IMG/VR virus record: IMGVR_UViG_3300042392_001901
Span: 1 to 55,794 of that record
Direction: 5' to 3' (one strand)
Source: a virus
Length of the DNA stretch: 55,794 bases
Positions 862 through 27,800 of the stretch are shown here, piece by piece. Numbering within the stretch: the first letter of the stretch is position 1; every line of letters starts with the position of its first letter. The position numbers and the translations under genes were made by a program. The notes beneath the pieces were generated by a model. The model did no database searches and was not told where the DNA came from. It was given only the letters and a program-made list of their open reading frames with translations.

Positions 862-936
862 GGGTATATAATGTAATGGATAGCATCAGGGTCTTCTAAA
901 TCCTTCGCCTAGGTTCGAATCCTAGTATACCCACCA
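862..936 (+). tRNA. tRNA-Arg (TCT)
   Basis: A full cloverleaf can be drawn: acceptor GGGTATA/TATACCC with A and encoded CCA, anticodon stem AGGGT/ATCCT with loop CTTCTAA (anticodon TCT), and T arm CTAGG-TTCGAAT-CCTAG. TCT reads AGA, a codon favoured in AT-rich phage genes. Confidence 0.9.
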
Positions 937-952
937 ATTTAAAAACACTATT

Positions 953-1585
953 ATGAATAAATGTAAACACTGTAAAGAAGAATTTGATTTGTGCGATAAA
1001 CCAAGTGGATGGATGGCAAACCATAGTAGATGGTGTAAAGAAAACCCAAAAAGAACTGAATATAAAAATGGTTCATTAAAGGCTGTTGCTGCTATGAATT
1101 TAGCGAAAAAAGAATCTGGAATTACTAATCAATATGATAAAGCAAAATCTGAGGGAAAGCAAATAGTTTCGCCGTTAATTAATAATAACTATTGGAAAGG
1201 AAGAAAACATACTGAAAAATCTAAACAATTGATGAAAGAAAAGGCGCTTTCTTCACCTCATAGAAGATTAAGAAGAGGAATTATTGAATATAATGGAATA
1301 ATGTTAGATTCTTCATGGGAATTAGAACTCGCTAAACGTTTAGATGAATGTAATATTACTTGGCTTAGACCAAGTCCATTGCCATGGATTGATAAAGATG
1401 GTATAACACATAATTATTTTCCAGATTTTTATCTTCCAGAATATAATCTATATCTAGATCCAAAAAATCCCCAAGCAATTAAAGTTCAAAATGAAAAATT
1501 AAAATGTTTGTTAAATCAATATGACAATATTGTTATTCTAAATTCTTTAGAATCATGTAAGAATTATAATATCTCTAATAAATAA
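953..1585 (+). CDS. Putative homing endonuclease (PD-(D/E)xK/Vsr-like, NUMOD3)
   Basis: A 210-residue protein starting 17 bases after tRNA-Arg. Residues 4-30 look like a zinc-binding element (CKHC ... HSRWC). Around residues 78-95 a WKGRKHTEKSKQLMKEKA stretch fits a NUMOD3 DNA-binding motif. The C-terminal half has an SSWELELAKRLDE segment, then YFPDFYLPEYNLYLDPK, resembling the E...PDF...D.K core of very-short-patch-repair-like and related PD-(D/E)xK nucleases. Such free-standing enzymes cut a DNA site and spread their own gene. The gene is very AT-rich and sits inside the tRNA cluster, consistent with a mobile insertion. The exact nuclease family is inferred from motifs only. Confidence 0.65.
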   Translation: MNKCKHCKEEFDLCDKPSGWMANHSRWCKENPKRTEYKNGSLKAVAAMNLAKKESGITNQYDKAKSEGKQIVSPLINNNYWKGRKHTEKSKQLMKEKALSSPHRRLRRGIIEYNGIMLDSSWELELAKRLDECNITWLRPSPLPWIDKDGITHNYFPDFYLPEYNLYLDPKNPQAIKVQNEKLKCLLNQYDNIVILNSLESCKNYNISNK

Positions 1586-1668
1586 AATTTCGGTACTGTG
1601 GTGGTATCGCTTACAGGAGCATGAGGTCCCTAAAGTCGAACAATTATCTCGTCGACAACCTCTAAATT

Positions 1669-1759
1669 TTCTATGGCTGTGTGATGAAATTGGTAAACAT
1701 TGCGAACTTAAAATTCGTTGCCTTATGGCTTGTCGGTTCGAGTCCGACCATAGCTACCA
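1669..1759 (+). tRNA. tRNA-Leu (TAA)
   Basis: Anticodon stem GCGAA/TTCGT carries loop CTTAAAA (anticodon TAA). There is a long variable arm (GCCTTATGGC), a T arm GTCGG-TTCGAGT-CCGAC and an encoded CCA. The D region GATGAAATTGGTAAACA is typical of tRNA-Leu. The first two acceptor positions do not pair with the 3' strand as read here, so the 5' end may be altered or off by a base or two. Confidence 0.85.
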
Positions 1760-1772
1760 TCTTTAAAAGATT

Positions 1773-1958
1773 ATGAATACAGAACATATTAAAAGTTTGA
1801 TTGACGCCGAAGTAGAAGCGCTACTCTCTGAGATGAATGAACTTAGAGAGCGAATAGCCAAACTTGAGCATGAATCATTTCGTCGATCGCTGAATGTTCA
1901 TCAACATATTGGGCAATACATAGATCACGAACAAAAAGAAAACGGACCAGTTTTATAA
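1773..1958 (+). CDS. Small coiled-coil protein
   Basis: A 61-residue protein between tRNA genes. Residues 5-35 (DAEVEALLSEMNELRERIAKLE) form a strong amphipathic coiled coil with leucines at heptad spacing; the tail is polar. Function is unknown. Its gene ends just before the broken tRNA at 1964. Confidence 0.5.
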   Translation: MNTEHIKSLIDAEVEALLSEMNELRERIAKLEHESFRRSLNVHQHIGQYIDHEQKENGPVL

Positions 1959-1963
1959 TGAAA

Positions 1964-2003
1964 GGGGCTTGTAGCTCAGCGGTAAGAGCAGGGGTCTATG
2001 ATT
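1964..2003 (+). pseudogene. 5' half of a second tRNA, interrupted
   Basis: GGGGCTT GT AGCTC AGCGGTAA GAGC A GGGGT is the 5' half of a tRNA through the first anticodon-stem strand. It is interrupted in the anticodon loop by a late promoter (2005-2012) and a GIY-YIG endonuclease gene. A matching 3' half (ACCCC ... AAGCCCC) was not found downstream. Confidence 0.55.
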
Positions 2004-2004
2004 G

Positions 2005-2012
2005 TATAAATA
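2005..2012 (+). promoter_or_regulatory. T4-type late promoter TATAAATA
   Basis: An exact TATAAATA six bases ahead of the GIY-YIG endonuclease start at 2018, directly behind the tRNA half. Confidence 0.6.
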
Positions 2013-2017
2013 GAATT

Positions 2018-2542
2018 ATGTTCTATACAATCTATAAAACTACAAATCTAATCAATAATAAATTTTATATAGGTAAACATCAAACTGCTAATCCAAATGA
2101 TTCGTATTATGGTTCCGGAAAGGCAATCAAGGAAGCTATATTAAAATATGGTAAGGAAAATTTTCAAAAAGAAATATTGTTTATTTTCCAAACAGAAGAG
2201 GAGATGAATGCAAAAGAAAGAGAATTGATTACTGAAGAATTTGTAAATTGCAAGGACACTTATAACATGGGAGTCGGCGGTGAAGGTGGATCACATTTTA
2301 AAGGCAAATCTCATTCAAATGAAACTATTTCACAAATTAAAAAAACTTTAAATTCCAGTGATAATAAACAAAAATTTATTGATGCTGGAAAACGTGGTGG
2401 TTCTTCATCAAAAGGTAGAAAACTTAGTGAAACTGCAAAGCAAAATATTTCGAAAGCAGCAAAATTAAGAAAGCCGATGAGCGAAGAAACAAAACAAAAA
2501 ATTTCAAATTCTTTAAAAAATCGAAATATTTCTAAGAACTAA
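2018..2542 (+). CDS. GIY-YIG homing endonuclease with NUMOD3 repeats
   Basis: A 174-residue Seg-type enzyme. The nuclease domain is at the N terminus: YTIYKTTN (GIY position), then KFYIGK (YIG position), a YYGSGKAI segment, and a downstream Glu-rich helix. The C-terminal third holds three NUMOD3-like DNA-binding repeats (FKGKSHSNETISQIKK, SKGRKLSETAKQNISK, MSEETKQKISNSLK). The ATG at 2018 is chosen because earlier in-frame sequence is the tRNA half. T4 Seg enzymes are relatives that move between phages and often sit by tRNA genes (known). Insertion into the tRNA is inferred from the broken half upstream. Confidence 0.85.
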   Translation: MFYTIYKTTNLINNKFYIGKHQTANPNDSYYGSGKAIKEAILKYGKENFQKEILFIFQTEEEMNAKERELITEEFVNCKDTYNMGVGGEGGSHFKGKSHSNETISQIKKTLNSSDNKQKFIDAGKRGGSSSKGRKLSETAKQNISKAAKLRKPMSEETKQKISNSLKNRNISKN

Positions 2543-2552
2543 ATTTCTATAA

Positions 2553-2628
2553 AGGCTCGTAGCTTAGCGGTGAAAGCGTCCGACTCATAATCGGGTGACC
2601 CTCGGTTCGAATCCGAGCGGGCCTACCA
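2553..2628 (+). tRNA. tRNA-Met/Ile (CAT)
   Basis: Cloverleaf: acceptor AGGCTCG/CGGGCCT with A and CCA, D stem GCTT/AAGC, anticodon stem TCCGA/TCGGG with loop CTCATAA (anticodon CAT), T arm CTCGG-TTCGAAT-CCGAG. Elongator Met or lysidine-modified Ile cannot be separated by eye; it is not a clear initiator because the anticodon stem lacks the three G-C pairs. Confidence 0.88.
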
Positions 2629-2640
2629 TTTTTAATAAGA

Positions 2641-2658
2641 ACCCAACCGGGCCCACCA
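2641..2658 (+). pseudogene. tRNA 3'-end remnant
   Basis: ACCCAACCGGGCCCACCA ends like a tRNA acceptor strand with CCA and resembles the end of the tRNA-Met just upstream (CGGGCCTACCA). No tRNA body precedes it. It is likely a leftover from tandem tRNA duplication and loss. Confidence 0.4.
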
Positions 2659-2659
2659 T

Positions 2660-2667
2660 TATAAATA
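2660..2667 (+). promoter_or_regulatory. T4-type late promoter TATAAATA
   Basis: An exact TATAAATA eight bases before the ATG at 2675. Confidence 0.6.
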
Positions 2668-2674
2668 TCATGAC

Positions 2675-3472
2675 ATGGTTTTACGTGCACTGCTATTCAT
2701 TACTAGTCTACTTGTGGCTGGATGTGCCGCATGGTTTTCAGTACTTGGCATTGCTACACTCTTTAGTGGTAGCTATGTTTCAGTGCTCATCATGGCAAGT
2801 GCACTAGAGATTGGCAAACTTGTAGCGACGACCTATTTGCATCACTATTGGGCATACACATCAGCACTCTTAAAAGGCTATCTCGTCACAGCTACACTCA
2901 TACTCATGTGTATAACTTCACTCGGTATTTTTGGTTATTTATCGTCTGCCTATGCTGTAAACTCAATACAATTTTCTAACATTGACTCCCAGGTTGTAGC
3001 TCTTCAAGAACGTAAGAGCGGCATCGACTCTGAAGTCTCACAAATCAACTCACGAATAGAGACACTAAACACTGCACGTCGTTCACAAGAAGAACGCTTG
3101 CCAAAGATGTCTGCGGCAAATGCACGACCAATCTATGCTGACATTGAAAGAACAGCGGCTGAAATGCAAGCACAACGCGAGAGAATAGTTCAACTGCAAG
3201 ACAGCAAGAGAGAGCTTGACACACAAATACAAGAGCTAAAACTCAAGATGTCGGCATCAAAAGACATTGGAACGTTTAAGTTTATTGCCGATCAGTTTAA
3301 TCTGCCGCTCGATACAATCGTAATGGCCTTTATATGCATAATCATTGCTGTGTTTGATCCACTTGCAATTGCACTGCTGCTGTCATACAACAGCACACTT
3401 TCCAAAACACTCATGAAAGACAAGTCAGTTGATGTTTCAAATCGCATCTATGACCTGTCTGACGGCTTATAA
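2675..3472 (+). CDS. Membrane protein with periplasmic/cytoplasmic coiled coil
   Basis: A 265-residue protein. About three hydrophobic segments lie in residues 1-95 (LLFITSLLVAGCAAW, VSVLIMASALEIGK, YLVTATLILMCITSLGIFGYL), then a long charged coiled coil at about 105-200 (QERKSGIDSEVSQINSRIE ...), then another membrane helix near 215-240 (IVMAFICIIIAVFDPLAIALLL). From memory, proteins of this layout recur in marine T4-like phages as unnamed membrane proteins. Its late promoter suggests late expression. The role is unknown; the long rod between membrane anchors could be structural or act in envelope remodelling (inference). Confidence 0.6.
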   Translation: MVLRALLFITSLLVAGCAAWFSVLGIATLFSGSYVSVLIMASALEIGKLVATTYLHHYWAYTSALLKGYLVTATLILMCITSLGIFGYLSSAYAVNSIQFSNIDSQVVALQERKSGIDSEVSQINSRIETLNTARRSQEERLPKMSAANARPIYADIERTAAEMQAQRERIVQLQDSKRELDTQIQELKLKMSASKDIGTFKFIADQFNLPLDTIVMAFICIIIAVFDPLAIALLLSYNSTLSKTLMKDKSVDVSNRIYDLSDGL

Positions 3473-3478
3473 ATTTTA

Positions 3479-3569
3479 GGGTAGATGGCTGAGTTGGTCT
3501 AAGGCGCTCGACTTGAAATCGAGAGAGGTTTAATCGCCTCCGTGGGTTCGAATCCTACTCTACCCGCCA
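3479..3569 (+). tRNA. tRNA-Ser (TGA)
   Basis: Acceptor GGGTAGA/TCTACCC with G discriminator and CCA, anticodon stem CTCGA/TCGAG with loop CTTGAAA (TGA), long variable arm, T arm with GGTTCGAATCC. Class II layout as expected for serine. Confidence 0.93.
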
Positions 3570-3573
3570 TTTT

Positions 3574-3663
3574 GGAACGTTGACTGAGTGGTCGAAAGTG
3601 TTTCCCTGCTAAGGAAATGTAGGGGCAACTCTACCGTAGGTTCAAATCCTACACGTTCCGCCA
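3574..3663 (+). tRNA. tRNA-Ser (GCT)
   Basis: Acceptor GGAACGT/ACGTTCC with G discriminator and CCA, anticodon stem TTTCC/GGAAA with loop CTGCTAA (GCT), long variable arm, T loop TTCAAAT. It lies four bases after the preceding tRNA-Ser. Confidence 0.93.
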
Positions 3664-3683
3664 ACACATATAGATACTTTTAT

Positions 3684-3758
3684 GGGGAGTTAGCTCAGCG
3701 ATAGAGCATCTCGTTTACACCGAGTCGGCCGGGGGTTTGAATCCCTCACTCCCCACCA
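3684..3758 (+). tRNA. tRNA-Val (TAC)
   Basis: Acceptor GGGGAGT/ACTCCCC with A and CCA, D stem GCTC/GAGC, anticodon stem TCTCG/CGAGT with loop TTTACAC (TAC), T loop TTTGAAT. Confidence 0.9.
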
Positions 3759-3791
3759 CTTCTCCCCCTGAAAAACAAAATGAACTATAAT

Positions 3792-4520
3792 ATGAAAAAA
3801 CAAACACAAATCGTTAAAGTCGGACTTATTGCAGCACTTGCTGCTCTTAACTATGCCTATGCAGGCCCAATCGAAGACGCTCCTTCAGCATTCACGCCAG
3901 TGACGCTTGAAACTGGCTACTCGTCTGATAAGGTCTGGCGTGGTGCTGATCTAGGTGCAAATGAAGCAAATGCAATCGTCACAACGACAACTGAACTTCC
4001 TGCGGACGTTTCGTTGGCGCTGAGTGCTGACTATGCAAACGCTGAAACAACTGGGAAGGACGAAGCTACTGAGCTCTCTGCAATCTTTTCTAAGAGCGTT
4101 GCTGACTATCTCGTATCTTTGAGCTATACCTGGTATTCGCAAGACTATGCAGGACAGGAAGGACAAGCGCAAGAAGCTGGTTTGACTGTATCACGTGTAG
4201 TTGGTCCAATCGACCTTTCGCTTACGCAATATGTCGGACTTGTTGGTGACAATAACAGCTATAGCGAACTTGCAGCAACATACAGTGATGATTTTGGATC
4301 TTCATTGATGCTTGACTTTCGCGCTGAGCTTGGCTATCTCGCTCAAGAAGGACAGTGTACTCACTTTGAGACCACTGTGTCGACTGACATTCCAGTTGTG
4401 CAAGGCGTGACCGCTGTTCCGTTTGTCTCATACTCACTTGGTCTTGATGACTCGGTTGGTGTGCATTCAGACATGAAGAATCTTTTCTTCGGTGGAATTG
4501 AGTTTAAGAAGACATTCTAA
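3792..4520 (+). CDS. Outer-membrane beta-barrel protein with signal peptide
   Basis: A 242-residue protein. It begins with a classic Sec signal peptide: MKKQ basic start, hydrophobic core, AYA cleavage site before GPIEDAP. The mature part alternates polar and hydrophobic residues in strand-sized runs (VTLETGYSSDKVWRG, VSLALSADYAN, YLVSLSYTWYSQDY, VDLSLTQYVG-like, SLMLDFRAELGYL) and ends in Phe, the usual signal for beta-barrel assembly. The GYSSDKVWRGADLG stretch recalls bacterial outer-membrane proteins with a YVFRG motif. No phage structural family is recognised. It could change host surface traits such as phage re-entry or uptake during infection (inference). An alternative ATG lies at 3780. 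Confidence 0.65.
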   Translation: MKKQTQIVKVGLIAALAALNYAYAGPIEDAPSAFTPVTLETGYSSDKVWRGADLGANEANAIVTTTTELPADVSLALSADYANAETTGKDEATELSAIFSKSVADYLVSLSYTWYSQDYAGQEGQAQEAGLTVSRVVGPIDLSLTQYVGLVGDNNSYSELAATYSDDFGSSLMLDFRAELGYLAQEGQCTHFETTVSTDIPVVQGVTAVPFVSYSLGLDDSVGVHSDMKNLFFGGIEFKKTF

Positions 4521-4542
4521 TATTATAAGAATATAAAACAAA

Positions 4543-4576
4543 AACGGAGCCTTCTCTATGTTGGCTCCGTTTTTTA
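4543..4576 (+). terminator. Rho-independent terminator
   Basis: ACGGAGCC (4544-4551) pairs with GGCTCCGT (4563-4570), followed by a run of T. It closes the beta-barrel gene and precedes tRNA-Leu. Confidence 0.85.
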
Positions 4577-4579
4577 TTT

Positions 4580-4663
4580 GGGCAAGTGGTGTAATGGTAG
4601 CCACGCGGGTTTTAGAAGCCCGTGCAGTGATGCGTGAGGGTTCAAGTCCCTCCTTGCCCACCA
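4580..4663 (+). tRNA. tRNA-Leu (TAG)
   Basis: Acceptor GGGCAAG/CTTGCCC with A and CCA, anticodon stem CGGGT/GCCCG with loop TTTAGAA (TAG), a long variable arm and T loop TTCAAGT. It starts right after the terminator, so it must be transcribed by read-through or from its own promoter. Confidence 0.88.
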
Positions 4664-12264: not shown

Positions 12265-12293
12265 TGTACAAATAAGTAGATTTGGTGTATAAT
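12265..12293 (+). promoter_or_regulatory. Host-type promoter, near copy of the uvsE promoter
   Basis: TGTACA (12265-12270), 17 bp, TATAAT (12288-12293), then ACATCATGATG. The downstream bases match the uvsE promoter at 12826-12854 (TATAATACATCATGA). It probably now transcribes the pseudogene and tmRNA. Confidence 0.7.
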
Positions 12294-12298
12294 ACATC

Positions 12299-12488
12299 AT
12301 GATGCCAAGATTGAGACTTGTTCGTATTAGTGAATTTAATACACTTGGTCAATTGGCACGTAAATTTCATGCAAGATGCGTTTACTTGGATGTATCCTAG
12401 TGATGTACCAACTGTTTGTAAACAATATTGGTCATGGGGAGGTCTAGATGATAATATACATAATGAGATAAATAAAATAATAACTTAA
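12299..12488 (+). pseudogene. Chimeric remnant: uvsE 5' end joined to glycosyltransferase 3' end
   Basis: The first codons read MMPRLRLVRISE, close to the start of UvsE downstream (MTPRLGLVCISE). They switch at an AGTGA shared by both parents into EFNTLGQLARK, matching the glycosyltransferase at 10928 (EFNTLGQWAHK). After a frameshift the match continues (FTWMYPSDVPTVCKQYWSWGGLDDNI) to the end. The 33-codon ORF that remains is unlikely to be functional. It records an illegitimate recombination of two flanking genes. Confidence 0.75.
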
Positions 12489-12490
12489 AC

Positions 12491-12817
12491 GGGTGTGACA
12501 TGGTTTCGACATGACATTTGAAGCAATATATGCAATGCACAGTCTGCACGACTCTAAGTGCAAGAGAAAAACGAAAAAGATACACTAGCTCTCGCGGCAT
12601 AACCGCACCAACGCATCAACTCCGATAACATGCGTTGGTACAGAGTAGGGTCGGATAGTTGTATATCGAAAATATAATAGACTCATCGATTCGAATATTG
12701 ATGCGGGATTGCTCGACAACAATCTAGGTTGTGATTGTCCTAACATCAATCAATAAATTGTAGAAGTATATTGCCGAGAAGTCATGGACTGGAGTTCGAT
12801 CCTCCACACATCCACCA
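12491..12817 (+). ncRNA. ssrA: Transfer-messenger RNA (tmRNA)
   Basis: A 327-base RNA. The 5' end GGGTGTG pairs with CACATCC before A-CCA (one G-T pair). The T arm is TGGAG-TTCGATC-CTCCA, and GGTTTCGACA near the 5' end is the conserved tmRNA D-loop region. An internal reading frame (12558-12602) ends in ALAA plus TAA, and a 10 bp hairpin (12607-12639) follows, as in bacterial tmRNAs. tmRNA with SmpB rescues stalled ribosomes and tags the nascent chain for proteolysis. It may help translate phage mRNA or recycle ribosomes after host mRNA decay. No smpB is in the window, so host SmpB would be used. Confidence 0.9.
12558..12602 (+). CDS. tmRNA tag-peptide reading frame
   Basis: The frame encodes (V)QEKNEKDTLALAA and then TAA. 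An in-frame TAA immediately precedes GTG, so the resume codon is GTG or the following CAA. The C-terminal ALAA is the proteolysis signal of bacterial SsrA tags. Confidence 0.8.
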   Translation: MQEKNEKDTLALAA

Positions 12818-12825
12818 TTTTTTTG

Positions 12826-12854
12826 TTTACAAATTGACGCTTTTAGGGTATAAT
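12826..12854 (+). promoter_or_regulatory. Host-type promoter of uvsE
   Basis: TTTACA (12826-12831), 17 bp, TATAAT (12849-12854). The start codon follows after five bases, giving a nearly leaderless mRNA. Confidence 0.75.
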
Positions 12855-12859
12855 ACATC

Positions 12860-13777
12860 ATGACACCACGACTGGGACTAGTTTGCATAAGTGAAAGACT
12901 GACATACCAAAAGATCTCAGCAAAGACGATGACTCGCAAGCAGTTTGTAACTCTTGGTCGTGAGCGTGGGTTGCAAGTACTATCCGAGCGTATACTTCAT
13001 AATTCGCAGCACATCTTGCGTACACTCCAGGCATGCATCGACTCAGGTGCTCGTCACTATCGTGTGTCGAGTTCAATTTTCCCGTTGCTTACTGATCATA
13101 CGCTCGAGTTGCGCTACGACGACCTGCATGGGTTTGATGATATCGCAAGCAACCTTGCGAAGGCTGGTGAATTTGCTCGGCAGCATGACATCACATGCAG
13201 CTCACATCCCGATCAGTTTAATGTCCTATCAAGTTATAACCCTGATGTTGTAGACAAGACTATTCGCGAACTTGACCATCAGTCATATGTGCTTGATATG
13301 ATGGGATGTAAAGCAAACTATAGTTCTCCAATGTGTCTGCATCTCAACAAGAGCCCTGACTTTAAGCGTGAAACTATTGGCGAGTATGTGTCTCGCTTTT
13401 GTGCAAATCTCGCCCGTTGTAGTCGTGGCGTTCGTCATCGACTTGTGTTAGAAAACGAAGACAAGGCATACTGGAATTGCGAGAATCTCTACACACATTT
13501 TGCAGGGCATCTTCCACTCGTCTATGACAATCTTCATGACACGTGCAACCCGTCATGCGACTCGTCTCAAAGCATCTCTCGATTTCGCCAAAGTTGGGGA
13601 AAATATACTCCTGTGTTTCATTGGAGCGAAGGTATTGGCAGCACTCGTAGTCATACTGACTATGCAACCCATCTCCCACATGTAGTCTCTGCAAATCGTG
13701 ACGTCACCTGGGAAGTCGAACTCAAGGCAAAAGACAATGCAATTGCTCATATTCTGAGCACCTTTTTTGCCTCCTAA
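12860..13777 (+). CDS. uvsE: UV-damage endonuclease UvsE (UVDE)
   Basis: A 305-residue TIM-barrel nuclease of full family length. It begins RLGLVCISERL, the usual UVDE start; RISSDLFPL-like HYRVSSSIFPLLT, CSSHPDQFNVLSS, LVLENEDKAYW, PLVYDNLHD and PVFHWSEG contain the conserved metal-binding His, Glu and Asp residues. UVDE nicks DNA 5' to UV photoproducts to start repair. It has its own host-type promoter and is followed by promoter module B. Expression with a very short leader is predicted. Confidence 0.93.
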   Translation: MTPRLGLVCISERLTYQKISAKTMTRKQFVTLGRERGLQVLSERILHNSQHILRTLQACIDSGARHYRVSSSIFPLLTDHTLELRYDDLHGFDDIASNLAKAGEFARQHDITCSSHPDQFNVLSSYNPDVVDKTIRELDHQSYVLDMMGCKANYSSPMCLHLNKSPDFKRETIGEYVSRFCANLARCSRGVRHRLVLENEDKAYWNCENLYTHFAGHLPLVYDNLHDTCNPSCDSSQSISRFRQSWGKYTPVFHWSEGIGSTRSHTDYATHLPHVVSANRDVTWEVELKAKDNAIAHILSTFFAS

Positions 13778-13783
13778 AGGTCT

Positions 13784-13885
13784 GTTTCTCTATACGGGGC
13801 TTAACTTTGGGGACTTTTTTCACTTTTATGAAAAAAGTTGTGTACTTTTGCCGCGGTTTATGCTATAATAACCATGTAAGCAACA
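13784..13885 (+). promoter_or_regulatory. Repeated early promoter module, copy B
   Basis: Starts with 'tttctctatacgggg', then hairpin CTTTTTTCA (13814-13822) / TGAAAAAAG (13829-13837), -35 TGTACT (13841-13846), 17 bp, TATAAT (13864-13869), leader TAACCATGTAAGCAACA (13869-13885). Confidence 0.8.
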
Positions 13886-18503: not shown

Positions 18504-18610
18504 GGTCATTTTCTCTATACGGGGACACCGTCCGGGACCTTTTTTCACTTTTATGAAAAAAGTTGTGTACTTTTGTCGCGGTTTATGCTATAATAACCAT
18601 GTAAGCAACA
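18503..18610 (+). promoter_or_regulatory. Repeated early promoter module, copy C
   Basis: 'ttttctctatacgggg', a GC-rich dyad (GGACACCGTCC), the AT hairpin, -35 TGTACT (18566-18571), 17 bp, TATAAT (18589-18594), leader TAACCATGTAAGCAACA (18594-18610). It is very close to copy D. Confidence 0.8.
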
Positions 18611-25709: not shown

Positions 25710-25817
25710 AGGTCATTTTCTCTATACGGGGACACTGCCCGGGACCTTTTTTCACTTTTTTGAAAAAAGTTGTGTACTTTTGTCGTGGTTTATGCTATAA
25801 TAACCATGTAAGCAACA
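25710..25817 (+). promoter_or_regulatory. Repeated early promoter module, copy D
   Basis: Begins after a CCTCCAGGAGG dyad. 'ttttctctatacgggg', AT hairpin, -35 TGTACT (25773-25778), 17 bp, TATAAT (25796-25801), leader TAACCATGTAAGCAACA (25801-25817); the ATG is at 25820. Confidence 0.8.
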
Positions 25818-27709: not shown

Positions 27710-27800
27710 GGAGGTCGAAAAAAGTGAAGTTTTTTCACTTTTTTGAAAAAAGTTGTGTACTTTTTGCGGGTTTTAGTGTATAATAATCCTGTAAGCAACA
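27710..27800 (+). promoter_or_regulatory. Repeated early promoter module, copy E
   Basis: The 'tctctatac' start is lost but a longer AT hairpin remains, then -35 TGTACT (27756-27761), 17 bp, TATAAT (27779-27784) and leader TAATCCTGTAAGCAACA (27784-27800), where the upstream ATG is CTG. Confidence 0.78.

Follow-up and report, generated by a model that had tools for sequence, protein, structure and literature searches.

Introduction

Phage-encoded tmRNAs have been described for mycobacteriophage Bxz1, Bacillus phage G and others (PMC4131195), and one survey recorded a tmRNA in 402 phages, 2.3% of 18,146 genomes (PMC9004378). Bxz1, with its cluster C1, and phage G resemble the present case in carrying a complete tmRNA gene in a large phage (PMC4131195). 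Closer in affiliation are Methylophilales phage Melnitz and Pelagibacter phage Mosig, T4-like lytic myophages of the same broad group that also carry a tmRNA; the Melnitz gene is of the permuted two-piece type and related to alphaproteobacterial genes (PMC9004378). The Melnitz authors suggested that such RNAs maintain the hijacked machinery or selectively degrade host proteins (PMC9004378). In the literature, no test was found of what phage tmRNAs do for the phage.

The DNA analysed here (the window) is a virus record of 55,794 bases. Its interval 12491-12817 is strongly supported as a phage-encoded tmRNA, complete and well preserved. Phage tmRNAs being already known, the gene adds a member and not a new kind of system. 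The additions are modest: a one-piece group in T4-like phages, a phage-specific set of LALAA tags, a GAA resume codon in one lineage, the retention of a tmRNA in most records searched, and a gap in detection by ARAGORN.

A one-piece tmRNA gene in a T4-like phage

12491-12817, + strand: tmRNA (ssrA) gene, one piece, 327 nt, CCA encoded (RF00023, 84.2 bits; same coordinates from ARAGORN -ps; 79-pair structure across 12 relatives)

The RF00023 match (Rfam cmscan, E = 3e-31, cut-off 47) spans the full model, positions 1-374 of 374, with no truncation, and its ends coincide exactly with those of the tmRNA originally predicted from the sequence. Complete bacterial tmRNA genes scored 124-136 bits here, compared with 84.2 bits for the window tmRNA. 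With default settings, ARAGORN reports seven tRNAs in the window and no tmRNA; at relaxed thresholds, it recovers the same interval with a tag in another frame, AREKRKRYTSSRGITAPTHQLR. Across 23 loci with Rfam-supported phage tmRNAs, default ARAGORN misses 10, and in no fewer than five others the frame that it chooses is clearly wrong. Published prevalences that are based on ARAGORN are therefore lower bounds. The single-strand fold of the RNA is stabler than its shuffles (z = -2.7), which is modest evidence if taken alone.

The order of the gene is contiguous and standard, with the 5′ acceptor strand first, in contrast to the permuted two-piece arrangement of the Melnitz type, and the gene lies beside uvdE. 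Further, Melnitz and Mosig carry a glutamine riboswitch (PMC9004378), whereas the window has no Rfam riboswitch match.

The window's gene content indicates that the phage is T4-like and related to Melnitz, Mosig and the Kyanoviridae. In particular, it carries genes for a gp32-like single-strand binding protein, a gp5-like OB protein, and gp53-like and other baseplate proteins, together with PhoH and an endolysin. Judged by gp32, Phage C48C1 and Kyanoviridae are the nearest annotated phages, and the best matches of the gp6-like wedge protein are in Melnitz, Mosig and HTVC008M (34-37% identity). The window shows no sign of an integrated prophage or of a host-derived attachment site, in an inspection that did not specifically search for integrases.

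Structural selection across relatives

12491-12497, + strand: 5′ strand of the acceptor stem, GGGTGTG, partner 12807-12813 (helix 1, 100% paired; both-side changes in 4 of 7 pairs)
12541-12562, + strand: PK1, AGTC/GACT crossed by TGCAC/GTGCA (helices 5 and 6, paired in 93.8% and 90.6%)
12594-12606, + strand: stop-codon hairpin, GCGG-CATAA-CCGC (from the sequence; 56% of cells pair as aligned)
12607-12655, + strand: PK2, ACCAACGCAT/ATGCGTTGGT crossed by TCCGA/TCGGA (helix 8, both-side changes in 8 of 10 pairs)
12662-12736, + strand: remaining pseudoknot region, with hairpins at 12662-12676 and 12684-12703 and a PK4-like element, ACAAC/GTTGT crossed by AATC/GATT, at 12716-12736
12790-12817, + strand: T arm (TGGAG-TTCGATC-CTCCA), acceptor 3′ strand, discriminator A and CCA (helix 14, 100% paired; both-side changes in 3 of 5 pairs)

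A complete tmRNA gene is under structural selection in T4-like phages. The structure, which comprises the acceptor, T stem, long P2 stem, PK1, stop hairpin, PK2, further hairpins and the PK4-like element, was drawn on the window and counted on 12 sequences. Standard pairs occupy 83.5% of the cells, compared with 69.4 ± 0.9% in shuffles and 27-43% with slid partners, where the drawing is somewhat favoured over the slid versions as it is based on one of the 12 sequences. Moreover, both sides changed in 41 pairs (26.8 ± 2.6 in shuffles), there are 121 double-change cells (46 ± 5 in shuffles), and the covariation score is 0.371, compared with 0.162 ± 0.011 in shuffles and at most 0.124 in slid controls. 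Outside the tRNA-like domain, the tmRNA alignment is too uncertain for a family tree.

The tRNA-like domain has a G3-U70 pair, a T arm and CCA, and no anticodon arm. G3-U70 is the alanine identity element read by AlaRS. It is formed by G12493 with T12811 and is invariant in all 12 sequences, while acceptor pairs 2, 4, 5 and 7 change on both sides; a constant G3-U70 among covarying neighbours is what selection on alanine charging would be expected to produce.

Among the pseudoknots, PK1, upstream of the tag, and PK2 both covary, and PK3 and PK4 are partly supported. In one relative (L024), the PK1 helix TGCAC/GTGCA becomes TGCTC/GAGCA, and the central pair of PK2 helix 9 switches as a group, being G-C in six sequences and U-A in six. 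All seven pairs of helix 11 changed on both sides. Helices 12 and 13, which form the PK4-like element, are backed in the close group only and pair poorly across distant relatives as aligned. With 56% of its cells pairing, the stop hairpin is weakly supported across relatives. An H-type drawing of PK1 (TGCAC/GTGCA with CTCT/AGAG) was rejected, CTCT/AGAG being broken in L011 and L012. The encoded CCA, the T arm, GGTTTCGACA and the hairpin at the tag stop, named in the original prediction as hallmarks, are all present, and the covariance-model hit and foldable pseudoknots on which it had staked itself were both obtained.

These data bear on whether the gene is a recently captured or decaying copy of a host ssrA, functionless in the phage. 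A decayed gene remnant directly upstream and the low Rfam score would fit such an origin, but compensatory changes run over the whole molecule, G3-U70 is invariant, the tag is the same in six variants, and tmRNA is present across divergent phages at different places, all of which makes a functionless copy very improbable.

Tag frame and resume codon

12573-12602, + strand: tag frame EKDTLALAA*, resume codon GAA at 12573-12575, stop TAA at 12600-12602 (alignment with relatives' tags)

In six of six distant relatives, a nine-residue frame starts at GGC, 10-12 nt after PK1, and ends in LALAA (GENTLALAA, GENNLALAA, GKNTLALAA and GNNTLALAA); ARAGORN independently assigns the GGC resume codon in L170, L171, L172 and L183. 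Alignment with these GGC-starting relatives places the window's resume codon at GAA 12573 and gives a tag of nine amino acids. The base at position -4, which sets the tag frame in E. coli (PMC2481249), is A12569 in the window and A in all relatives aligned. The frame is short, has the A at -4 and a hydrophobic LAA-type end, and closes with a stop. The LALAA end is kept in every group member, and six close variants have 0 variable sites within the 30-nt tag frame compared with 37 of 297 outside it, although this is a weak test (Fisher p 0.034).

In place of the common GCA or GGC, the window's group resumes at GAA, whereas its relatives have GGC. GAA is an uncommon resume codon. A common resume codon is usual but not required: the H. 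pylori tmRNA, for instance, resumes at GUA (PMC2862035), so that GAA does not count against the assignment as tmRNA.

The original prediction read the tag as (Q)EKNEKDTLALAA. Its frame was right, whereas its start lies too far upstream: PK1 extends to 12562, comparison with relatives puts the resume codon at 12573-12575, and the additional residues (Q)EKN fall within PK1 and the spacer. A start at CAA or GAG was likewise discarded, as both codons fall within PK1 or immediately after it and the relatives begin at GGC. ARAGORN proposes yet another reading, from an internal GCA (AREKRKRYTSSRG...), which also has an A at its -4 position. This GCA, however, sits inside the 3′ strand of PK1. The peptide read from it measures 22, 27 or 32 aa, depending on the close relative, and lacks a conserved end; distant relatives, moreover, use the LALAA frame. 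The GCA frame was rejected on these grounds and has a very small chance of being correct.

The tag does not identify the host

It was originally predicted that the tag might reveal the host lineage, an expectation that failed: among 84,980 species genomes, no bacterium matched G-x-N-T-L-A-L-A-A. A degenerate scan of these genomes (GGC-x-x-N-T-(L/F)-A-(L/F)-A-A) matched six tmRNAs, all with F for the first L (GENTFALAA and GNNTFALAA), so that the phage tag is no copy of any cellular tag found. Five of the matching genomes are titled Chitinophagales, Saprospiraceae, Cytophagales, Bacteroidia or Bacteroidota (L185-L188 and L190), and the sixth is titled Acetofilamentum (L189). Their GGC codon and nine-residue tags resemble those of the phage relatives; in contrast, their 5′ ends open with GGAATTGAC-type sequence and not with the phage GGTTTCGAC, their complete genes are 364-381 nt long, and their tags have F instead of L, while the window resumes at GAA. 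The sigma-70-like TATAAT promoters of the window give no clear pointer to Bacteroidota. Overall, the tag does not identify the host.

Locus and transcription

12301-12485, + strand: decayed junction outside the RNA, joining a copy of the start of uvdE to what is left of the C-terminal part of a DUF6492-type glycosyltransferase gene (tblastn and comparison with L014, L013, L017 and L010)
12826-12854, + strand: sigma-70-like promoter of uvdE, TTTACA-N17-TATAAT
12860-13777, + strand: uvdE-family UV-damage endonuclease, the constant downstream neighbour in close relatives (PF03851, 132.5 bits)

The tmRNA sits between glycosyltransferase-type genes and uvdE. The unit of tmRNA, promoter and uvdE is constant, and its upstream side is exchanged among relatives. 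L014 has no tmRNA at this place, the uvdE promoter and gene coming straight after the glycosyltransferase gene. L013 and L017 have a shorter glycosyltransferase remnant that joins at TTGTTTGTA, with break points that differ from those of the window, and L010-L012 have a different gene upstream of the tmRNA.

A promoter at 12265-12293 could serve the window tmRNA. As L013 and L017 do not retain this promoter, the tmRNA may be transcribed together with the genes upstream; the transcript may then be trimmed by host RNases.

Spread among phages and probable dependence on host factors

A uvdE search of viral contigs returned 42 loci, and the near-identical ones (92-100% identity) have the same tmRNA ahead of uvdE. 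In 28 of 37 whole records, mostly of uvdE-bearing relatives, RF00023 scored above cut-off with a full tmRNA. The original description of phage tmRNAs as rare is thus apt for the survey cited above (PMC9004378) but not for the records searched here. The tmRNAs in these records often lie away from uvdE and are of several distinct types. Among annotated phages searched with the tmRNA DNA, no full-length relative was found, only tRNA-like 3′ ends.

A search for SmpB (PF01668) was negative in all 31 phage records, a set that includes contigs of 140-230 kb but consists mostly of fragments, so that absence is not proof; bacterial control genomes were positive. On this result, the phage RNA would have to use the host's SmpB, AlaRS, EF-Tu and proteases. 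As tmRNA is common and SmpB absent in the records searched, and as tags vary while the structure covaries, this clade allows comparison to address whether phages bring their own ribosome rescue.

Four records of 72-230 kb (L173, L175, L176 and L178, the records of L044, L037, L042 and L040) carry a different tmRNA whose 33-aa tag, AEDNFDMAMSLEEADAVLAQYGFEDAEAELELV or a variant of it, is conserved. This tag ends in LV, not LAA, and between three of the copies silent and codon-changing differences are similar in number. Its length and LV end recall Bxz1, and it may not be an ordinary degradation tag. The C1 tags, such as ATDTDATVTDAEIEAFFAEEAAALV, also end in LV; the window tag, in contrast, has nine residues and ends in LAA. 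Further tmRNA types, with tags GNNIVNAVRSFVNRSFAPQGELALAA, GKNKTVVNSGLALAA and GKNNVVDSGLALAA, occur in the uvdE-bearing phages L026, L030, L165 and L168; the L030 copy has no encoded CCA end in the matched stretch.

Proposed function

The benefit to the phage is not obvious, given that a tmRNA is normally already present in the host. The favoured reading, to which we assign a probability of about 0.88, is that the window encodes a functional, one-piece tmRNA that is alanylated and rescues stalled ribosomes with host factors, sustained or enlarged rescue being the benefit. The RNA would be charged with alanine by host AlaRS through G3-U70, and EF-Tu and host SmpB would deliver it to ribosomes stalled on truncated mRNAs. 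It would then accept the nascent chain, translation would switch to the GAA at 12573, and (A)EKDTLALAA would be added before release at TAA frees the ribosome; the Leu-Ala-Ala end would be left for host ClpXP-type proteases. The phage would gain sustained or enlarged rescue at a time when host RNA is degraded and phage mRNA abundant. In short, we infer that the window tmRNA is expressed and charged, that it acts in rescue and proteolysis, and that it confers a fitness benefit.

Ribosome rescue during infection is the most likely role. That a phage can depend on rescue follows from lambda-imm-P22, whose plating drops 10,000-fold when ssrA or smpB is missing (PMC2862035). Alternatively, the main task of the RNA could be to send host proteins, or selected ones, to degradation by tagging, so that their amino acids are reused, with rescue being secondary, an idea raised for Melnitz (PMC9004378) and compatible with the LALAA end found throughout the group. 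Tagging, however, needs a stalled ribosome and does not choose host proteins as such, and growth of lambda-imm-P22 in E. coli was reported to depend on rescue, not on proteolysis (PMC2862035); a primarily degradative role is therefore unlikely. As the LAA end is kept, some of the tagged proteins may be channelled into proteolysis alongside the preferred role in rescue.

A more specific proposal, tentative and rather unlikely, is that the tmRNA of this clade is a standard rescue RNA, inherited vertically and adapted to the phage. Its tag and its resume codon, GAA in place of GGC, would have moved away from the cellular versions, such that the output of phage-run trans-translation would differ from that of the host, for example by escaping a host adaptor such as SspB while keeping recognition by ClpXP.

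Other features of the window

A Shine-Dalgarno-like motif precedes only 3 of 37 gene starts checked in the window. Many gene starts (e.g. 2675, 5179, 6710, 10275, 21470 and 54117) have a late-promoter-like TATAAATA whose end is 4-10 nt upstream of the ATG, and the ATG of uvdE follows its TATAAT at a distance of 5 nt. The scarcity of Shine-Dalgarno motifs and the closeness of promoter and ATG suggest leaderless or nearly leaderless mRNAs. Further, a promoter-like unit, GTTGTGTACTTT...TTTA...TATAAT followed by AACCATGTAAGCAACA-like sequence, occurs in five copies (270-302, 13837-13869, 18562-18594, 25769-25801 and 27752-27784), where none is expected by chance. The region 862-4663 contains the seven tRNA genes with small genes between them, among which are a GIY-YIG/NUMOD3 homing-endonuclease-like protein (1958-2542) and a weakly matching NUMOD3-motif protein (953-1585).
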